Source of the DNA: Glandiceps talaboti
Taxonomy: Eukaryota; Hemichordata; Enteropneusta; Spengelidae
Length of the DNA stretch: 64,000 bases
Direction of reading: 5' to 3'
Assembly (NCBI RefSeq): GCF_964340395.1
Contig: NC_135549.1
Location: forward strand, 20,051,342 to 20,115,341
The position numbers and the translations under genes are program-made. Under the pieces are notes generated by a model. The model worked only from the letters and a program-made list of their open reading frames with translations. It was not told the DNA's origin and ran no database searches. How positions within the stretch are numbered: position 1 is the first letter of the stretch; every line of letters starts with the position of its first letter. Of this stretch, positions 919 to 1,232 are shown piece by piece.

Positions 919-1005
919 ACTCGGTGAGTATCAATCTGCTAAGACAGTGCTCTATACCGCAGTGGCAGAGCGTGATAGTTTTGGTAGTACTGGAACTCTT
1001 TCTTG

Positions 1006-1048
1006 GTTGTAACTCGGAGTTTCACGCATGGCGCGATCATCAGACAAC
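1006..1048 (-). ncRNA. Hammerhead-ribozyme-like motif (copy A, left arm)
   Basis: This is the exact reverse complement of 1051-1093, so a transcript of the minus strand would carry the same motif with the same core and the same stem II mismatch. A transcript of either strand would also contain the complementary arm. That arm could compete with the ribozyme fold by forming the 69-bp hairpin. Confidence 0.55.
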
Positions 1049-1050
1049 TC

Positions 1051-1093
1051 GTTGTCTGATGATCGCGCCATGCGTGAAACTCCGAGTTACAAC
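1051..1093 (+). ncRNA. Hammerhead-ribozyme-like motif, minimal stem III (copy A, right arm)
   Basis: The elements occur in hammerhead order. Stem I 5' strand is GTTGT (1051-1055). The core is CTGATGA (1056-1062). Stem II lies in 1063-1075, with CGCG/TGCG pairing around a CCA loop. GAA follows at 1076-1078. Stem III is ACT/AGT with loop CCG (1079-1087). The cleavage-site base is T1088. Stem I closes with ACAAC (1089-1093). Stems I and III pair perfectly, and the site reads GTT, which fits the GUH rule. The weak point is a T/T mismatch at the pair next to the core in stem II (1063/1075), normally G-C. Self-cleavage is untested. Confidence 0.6.
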
Positions 1094-1118
1094 CAAGAAA
1101 GAGTTCCAGTACTACCAA

Positions 1119-1232
1119 ATATATATATATATATATATATATATATATATATATATATATATATATATATATATATATATATATATATATATATATATAT
1201 ATATATATATATATATATATATATATATATAT
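1119..1232. repeat. (AT)n tract, about 114 bases
   Basis: An uninterrupted AT dinucleotide run begins at the last base of the foldback arm. Tyr-Ile reading frames through it are not genes. Confidence 0.97.

Follow-up and report, generated by a model that had tools for sequence, protein, structure and literature searches.

Structure of the foldback locus

The window analysed here is a 64,000-nt stretch of the Glandiceps talaboti genome (G000:C1:20051342-20115341), and the whole 590-Mb genome was searched for related sequences. Near the start of the window lies an exact inverted repeat with two 69-nt arms (980-1048 and 1051-1119) separated by the 2-nt spacer TC and followed by 57 copies of AT at 100% identity (1119-1232), which bears out the perfect 69-bp foldback with a 2-base spacer and a 114-bp (AT)n tract described in the first-pass annotation. 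When loops are limited to 30 nt and each arm must hold 4 or more G/C, a scan ranks this repeat as the longest hairpin of the window; the runners-up have arms of 35 and 27 nt. The core arms stand as they were described; the left edge was misplaced, since a longer tail extends the left arm to 919. Its outer end adjoins (TA)n at 901-918, its inner end is the 5' end of the leader of a larger element (see below), and the TC spacer is consistent with the GA of that leader. We read the (AT)57 tract as target DNA of the insertion.

The leader occurs in four families. The element of the main foldback is assigned to family 1, and its arms end outward at a short-tail site (S) or a long-tail site (L). Two further foldbacks had been overlooked: a second family-1 copy at 29701-29812 and a family-4 copy at 771-900. 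The family-4 copy consists of a short-tail left arm on the minus strand (771-803; positions 67-99 of the family-4 locus L102, 100%) and a long-tail right arm on the plus strand that runs up to 900 (L102 67-169, 92.5%). A leader remnant at 25064-25088 is too short for its end to be typed. Features are collected in Table 1.

Several other observations were made in the window. Older remnants of the third family stand at 6428-6498 (82% to L100), which adjoins a (TA)n tract, and at 43548-43617 (75% to L100). A Penelope-like element (PLE) end adjoins 5 of the 14 (TA)8-or-longer runs listed. Three open reading frames (ORFs), at 2551-3750 (+), 8002-9012 (-) and 49774-50760 (-), look by eye like rhodopsin-type GPCRs.

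Table 1 Features of the foldbacks and related sequences in the window (ref, position in the 390-nt reference leader)
Feature	Position	Strand	Basis
Family-4 PLE foldback, directly upstream of the family-1 foldback	771..900		blastn against L102
(TA)9, left-side target DNA common to the family-1 and family-4 foldbacks	901..918		sequence
Family-1 foldback, left arm: long-tail PLE leader, L end at 919	919..1050	-	blastn against the reference leader: ref 259-390, 99.2%
Hammerhead (predicted), other-strand copy; predicted cut between 1011 and 1010	1006..1048	-	structural descriptor
Hammerhead (predicted), plus-strand arm	1051..1093	+	structural descriptor, four-family alignment
Family-1 foldback, right arm: short tail (S end), adjoins (AT)n	1051..1118	+	ref 261-328/329, 100%
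(AT)57 tract, right side of the insertion	1119..1232		repeat scan
Short remnant of a PLE leader, next to (AT)n 25097-25152	25064..25088	-	family 4, 92% over 25 nt; family 1, 91% over 22 nt
Second family-1 foldback, left arm	29701..29740	-	ref 256-295, 100%
Second family-1 foldback, right arm: short tail, beside (TA)n 29813-29896	29742..29812	+	ref 261-331, 100%

Copies of the arm and the parent element

We used the 68-nt right arm as a query and obtained 56 matches from the best 40 of 826 candidates, 36 of them, counting those of the window, identical across the full 68 nt. These 56 matches lie at 39 places, 17 of which hold a head-to-head pair and 22 a single arm in the list; among the latter, L003, L018 and L034 carry a second arm that lacks the core, and other places show none. 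A pattern of facing arms (two 13-nt arm ends 0-30 nt apart) occurs at 81 sites genome-wide, and the backward control gave 0. The 50 palindromes listed of these 81 have 38 distinct centres, and no two of the 28 short pairs share the same combination of arm ends and gap. At one pair (L012, about C14:13865595-13865888), the arms are separated by an 87-nt gap holding a (TATG)n run, which shows that a tetranucleotide repeat can serve as filler. Pattern and related-locus searches of viral and genome contigs returned nothing.

In longer copies (L002 and L010), a TATA-bearing stretch precedes the arm and open frames precede that stretch. These frames carry GLYRDDGLA and end with YIGLTE..FKQRY, and FDICDFYPSI is found in longer copies. 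Open frames reach 777 aa in the fetched loci, DFYPSI and GLYRDDGLA are conserved between families 1 and 2, and YIGLTE..FKQRY..H with a later conserved E lies near the C-terminal end of the ORF. By eye, we take DFYPSI and GLYRDDGLA to be reverse transcriptase (RT) motifs and YIGLTE..FKQRY..H to be a GIY-YIG-like endonuclease (EN) motif; both names are based on motifs recognised by eye, since searches of the ORF against Pfam, NCBIfam and PDB gave no match apart from weak hits, a few in Pfam and one in PDB, that look like chance. The main ORF apparently starts at MEQP, downstream of both end sites.

A protein search with the L010 stretch matched all of the best 120 of 1863 candidates; among these 120 scored matches, 99 show at least 92% identity and 10 show 61%. 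The 61% matches form at least two further families (2 and 3), the nearest about 5.7 kb before the window, and the fourth family came from a further search. Additionally, tandem units stand 2,526-2,527 bp apart on C11 and C14 with the leader between units. An AT-rich target, tandem units with pseudo-LTRs (pLTRs), inverted pLTRs and an optional tail were all found; a short target-site duplication cannot be told apart inside (TA)n. Judged by its tandem units, inverted pLTRs, tails and AT-rich target in the genome sequence, the element is built like an endonuclease-bearing PLE. The earlier proposal that the arm is the terminus of a Penelope-type element is thus upheld, as longer copies adjoin an ORF with the RT and GIY-YIG-like motifs named above.

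Nearly all typeable pairs combine two different fixed outer ends

To type the outer ends, we assembled a 390-nt reference leader from 328 nt of L002 plus the long tail of other copies, and aligned it to L001-L099 and the window. Twenty of these stretches (L076-L095) were selected because they flank ten ORF pairs in minus/plus arrangement on the outside; the set leaves out two more pairs of this kind (C11:18393376 and C7:9223827). Two sites account for the ends of 137 of the 146 leader hits: 74 end at L (ref 390) and 63 at S (ref about 334), so that L lies about 56 nt beyond S. The other 9 end elsewhere or are cut, and include the left arm of the second family-1 copy, with an atypical outer end at ref 295 and no adjoining (TA)n. 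A reading of that arm as a tail-less pLTR was rejected, because its outer end is neither S nor L. A (TA)4 stands within 10 nt of 58 of the 63 S ends and 66 of the 74 L ends.

The head-to-head pairs follow a strict rule. Of 48 pairs, 41 can be typed at both ends and 7 cannot; 40 of the 41 combine one S end with one L end, with L on the left in 21 and on the right in 19. No S/S pair was found, and the sole non-mixed pair is L/L and consists of tail-only arms (L011). About half of the pairs would be expected to be mixed if ends were independent (P about 1.5e-11). The rule holds for short pairs (23/24 typeable) and long pairs (17/17 typeable) alike. Family 4 was scored with a 144-nt query from L102 that ends before the end of the long tail; the 48 matches from the best 40 of 463 candidates hold 8 head-to-head pairs, and in all 8 one arm stops at S and the other passes S to the end of the query. 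The family-4 foldback in the window likewise has one short-tail and one long-tail arm.

A tandem copy runs on past both sites (AACTAT|TACG and GAGTTA|CATACG), and we therefore interpret the ends as points where reverse transcription began inside a longer RNA. The UA or UAU present at both sites could pair with a (TA)n primer, as judged from the sequence.

A hammerhead fold in the leader

Minimal type I hammerheads have reportedly been found in PLEs by Cervera and de la Pena in 2014 and by Lunse et al. in 2017. In the right arm of the foldback, the plus-strand hammerhead comprises a 5-bp stem I (1051-1055/1089-1093), CTGATGA at 1056-1062, a stem II (1063-1066/1072-1075) of 3 canonical pairs whose first pair, beside the core, is T/T, GAA at 1076-1078, and a 3-bp stem III (1079-1081/1085-1087) with a 3-nt loop. 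T17 is at 1088, and the predicted cut falls at 1088|1089. Each full arm fits the hammerhead-like layout that had been claimed for it, with CTGATGA, GAA, a 5-bp stem I and a 3-bp stem III with a 3-base loop, and the hammerhead makes up most of the arm. The full descriptor fits three times in the window, and a fourth, weaker fit lies on the shortened arm of the second copy; 60 first-order Markov windows gave no full fit and 4 weaker fits in all.

Next, covariation was examined in nine forms from four PLE families, chosen by hand and excluding the decayed form L033. In these nine forms, 86.3% of cells are paired on the hammerhead structure, compared with 25-50% when the structure is slid by 1-3 columns. 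Two-sided changes occur at 5 of 13 pairs and are spread over stems I, II and III. None of 500 shuffles reached the observed pairing, the number of two-sided-change cells or the covariation score; 34 of the same 500 matched the count of two-sided-change pairs and 336 matched the further pair types, so two of the five covariation measures do not clearly beat the shuffles. Randomised cores and unconserved stems, which the first-pass annotation had named as grounds against a ribozyme, are contradicted by this alignment: the core is mostly kept, and all three stems carry two-sided changes.

The window's full arms and 7 of the 9 aligned forms have the hammerhead core, the three helices and a NUH at the cut. 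Among the untruncated PLE forms listed, position 17 is T, C or A and never G. U4 is replaced by C in two of the nine forms, that of family 4 and one of family 3, which by its sequence should weaken cleavage. The T/T pair, which had been considered a weakness of the fold, is indeed present; it does not indicate decay, being fixed in 8 of 9 forms and in three of the four families (A-U in family 2), and is thus a family trait. In the parts available of two descriptions of minimal type I hammerheads in PLEs (PMC6155905, PMC7761336), the likeness to the Glandiceps forms lies in the very short stem III and the pLTR location, and the T/T pair and the C for U4 may be differences.

Covariance models were less favourable. 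Rfam reported no family at gathering score on the window, and a search of 900-1300 with E up to 10 gave 23 matches to other families and no hammerhead; the hits on the foldback, mostly to hairpin (microRNA) and AT-rich families, are taken for artefacts. The family-2 form scores 14.7 bits against RF00008, for which the gathering score is 48.5. Scores below threshold, also named in advance as evidence against the fold, were thus obtained for the stretches tested; the genome-wide RF00163 run was blank too, as were its 14 controls.

Separately, canonical-looking type I hammerheads (CTGACGA..., CTGATGAGTGAGG...) were noticed near 2964 and 3288 (+) of L044 and also at L059 and L012. They have G-C beside the core and are possibly retrozymes; those of L044 and L012 gave nothing at Rfam gathering either.

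Transcribed as one strand, the palindrome is predicted to form a single hairpin of -130.5 kcal/mol. By itself, the hammerhead stretch reaches -8.7 kcal/mol, no better than shuffles (z -0.45), and its minimum-energy fold takes another stem II register. A ribozyme on both strands with a competing hairpin had been proposed; the competing hairpin is present, but a working ribozyme on both strands is unlikely, because the hairpin is far more stable and because the arms end before the TATA box. Together, the alignment supports the presence of a minimal type I hammerhead fold in the leader. Within the palindrome, the hammerhead is probably locked in the hairpin and inert, and its role, if any, would lie in the intact RNA.

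Inner ends and the putative transcription start

The inner ends of the arms cluster as well. Of 92 inner ends, in samples that were retrieved with the arm itself (the 68-nt core) and hence favour complete arms, 56 fall at ref 255-263 and 36 outside; in the 50 palindromes listed of 81, GTTGTC is followed by 0-3 nt before the arm ends in 90 of 100 cases. Within CCTCAGAG, the A at ref 258 is 32 nt downstream of the first T of TATATATA. Families 2 and 3 also carry a TATA-like box some 30 nt upstream; family 4 lacks a TATA at the corresponding position. These spacings suggest that the cluster at ref 255-263 is likely the mRNA start, and with this putative start the hammerhead would occupy the first ~40 nt of the mRNA.

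We looked for a second cluster of inner ends at the predicted ribozyme cut and found only 1 of 92 at ref 299, with two at 295. Ends at the cut are too rare to support the use of cleaved templates, and most insertion templates seem to have been uncleaved, in agreement with the in vitro result for an Anolis PLE. The left arm of the window's family-4 foldback has its start precisely at the predicted 3' product (L102 position 67), which hints at a cleaved template in that case.

A model for the origin of the foldback

In our view, the foldback is probably the footprint of a PLE insertion in which both strands of a (TA)n tract primed leader cDNA from two sites, and the cDNAs ran to the 5' end and were joined. 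Specifically, the PLE RT/endonuclease would open the (TA)n tract, and the two target 3' ends would prime reverse transcription on the leader RNA, using S for one strand and L for the other. Each cDNA would then be extended to the RNA 5' end, and the two would be joined, often with a few filler bases, into a palindrome. The leader-only palindrome would be the minimal product, formed when both cDNAs run off the mRNA 5' end; long head-to-head copies would arise in the same way if the template were a longer (tandem) transcript. The palindrome itself is probably an inert by-product of PLE insertion.

We further consider it reasonably probable that priming is asymmetric, with the two target strands using two different fixed leader sites and practically never the same site twice. 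Since (TA)n reads the same on both strands, the target cannot assign the sites, and the asymmetry must then lie in the RNA-protein complex; a dimer on one RNA, for example, may be its source.

The main alternative is that one strand only was primed and the 3' end of the cDNA folded back at the GACAAC/GTTGTC palindrome to copy itself into the second arm. Very short centres, 1-3 nt in 12 of the 50 palindromes listed (81 in total), agree with such self-priming, as do the palindromes at inverted junctions that the consulted part of a rotifer Penelope account describes (PMC3846280). A copied arm, however, should mirror the first tail or stop at random and should not end at a separate fixed site of its own, whereas 40 of 41 pairs have two fixed ends; longer fillers and arms of unequal inner length also occur. 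We therefore regard self-priming as unlikely.

Another reading is that the resemblance to a hammerhead is accidental and the conserved sequence is only an RT start or promoter element. The below-threshold Rfam scores speak for it, as do the fold of the arm alone, which does not surpass shuffles and has a competing stem II register, and the single inner end of 92 at the predicted cut. Set against the two-sided changes in all three stems across four families, the mostly conserved core and the absence of G at position 17 in the untruncated PLE forms listed, this reading appears very improbable.

Two other origins are hardly credible. The arms could be the terminal inverted repeats of a snap-back MITE, a DNA transposon with TA target duplications, which would suit the perfect inverted repeat and the TA on both sides; against this, the arm ends are asymmetric (S with L in 40 of 41 typeable pairs), only one arm is listed at 22 of 39 places (some, as noted, with a core-less second arm and others with none), longer copies run from the arm into the TATA-bearing stretch and the RT/EN-like ORF, and the covariation supports an RNA fold. 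The circular-RNA option of the first-pass annotation, a small retrozyme with type I hammerheads, has a precedent in animal repeats expressed as ~170-400 nt RNAs, as far as the available part of PMC7229834 goes, and canonical-looking hammerheads do occur elsewhere in this genome; it is not supported, as no direct tandem repeat of a 170-400 nt unit was found at the foldback, the tandem units of the element measure 2,526 bp and contain an ORF, and the hammerhead stands in a leader joined to that RT/EN-like ORF.

Comparison with known systems

The insertion model of two primed strands finds its closest counterpart in the Anolis PLE PAc (Frangieh et al. 2024, PMC11167929), which cuts AT-rich DNA, extends both target strands and starts reverse transcription at two adjacent internal sites, with no strand difference in vitro. 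PAc and the Glandiceps element share a hammerhead at the pLTR/ORF junction, tandem units and an AT-rich target; extension of both target strands, proposed for the Glandiceps element, is a further likeness, as are two adjacent internal RT start sites that define the 'tail' (PMC11167929). They differ in that the PAc starts lie 111-118 into its ORF and both Glandiceps sites precede the apparent start of the main ORF (MEQP...), and in that the Glandiceps target is (TA)n and its footprints pair one S with one L (PMC11167929). By analogy, the lack of a strand difference in PAc in vitro would count against strand-specific start sites.

Following PAc, we also considered the ATG at 1070, in loop II of the hammerhead, as the start codon of the element, and rejected it because its frame stops after 25 codons and the main frame starts later at MEQP. 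This 25-codon upstream frame (1070-1118, into the long tail) is kept with one change in the tandem copy L069.

Likenesses to the Penelopes of the rotifer Adineta vaga, within the portion of PMC3846280 consulted, include head-to-head inverted pLTRs, junction palindromes and solo pLTRs, an optional 31-bp tail on one inverted pLTR, TATA and Inr in the pLTR, and a preference for simple AT-rich targets. In that portion, self-priming on an antisense template is favoured for head-to-head PLE copies, and neither ~200-bp foldbacks made of the leader alone nor a tally of tails in each pair was noticed (PMC3846280). Metazoan retrozymes, in the part available of Cervera and de la Pena 2020 (PMC7229834), share with the Glandiceps element type I hammerheads in animal repeats; unlike them, it has no small direct tandem repeat and is joined to an RT/EN-like ORF.

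We found no description of the S-with-L pair rule or of leader-only foldbacks in open-licence PMC papers, and the rule may stand outside that scope; six pieces of the arm sequence were likewise absent from the text of such papers.

Implications for PLE insertion

The palindrome itself is of ordinary origin, and the interesting part is the rule that pairs S with L. Two start sites of one PLE were reported in vitro in 2024 (PMC11167929). A test of the leader hammerhead by covariation across four families has also been gained, though most insertion templates appear to be uncleaved. The Glandiceps genome holds many natural end products of insertion in a self-complementary target, in which the choice of strand and start site can be counted directly.
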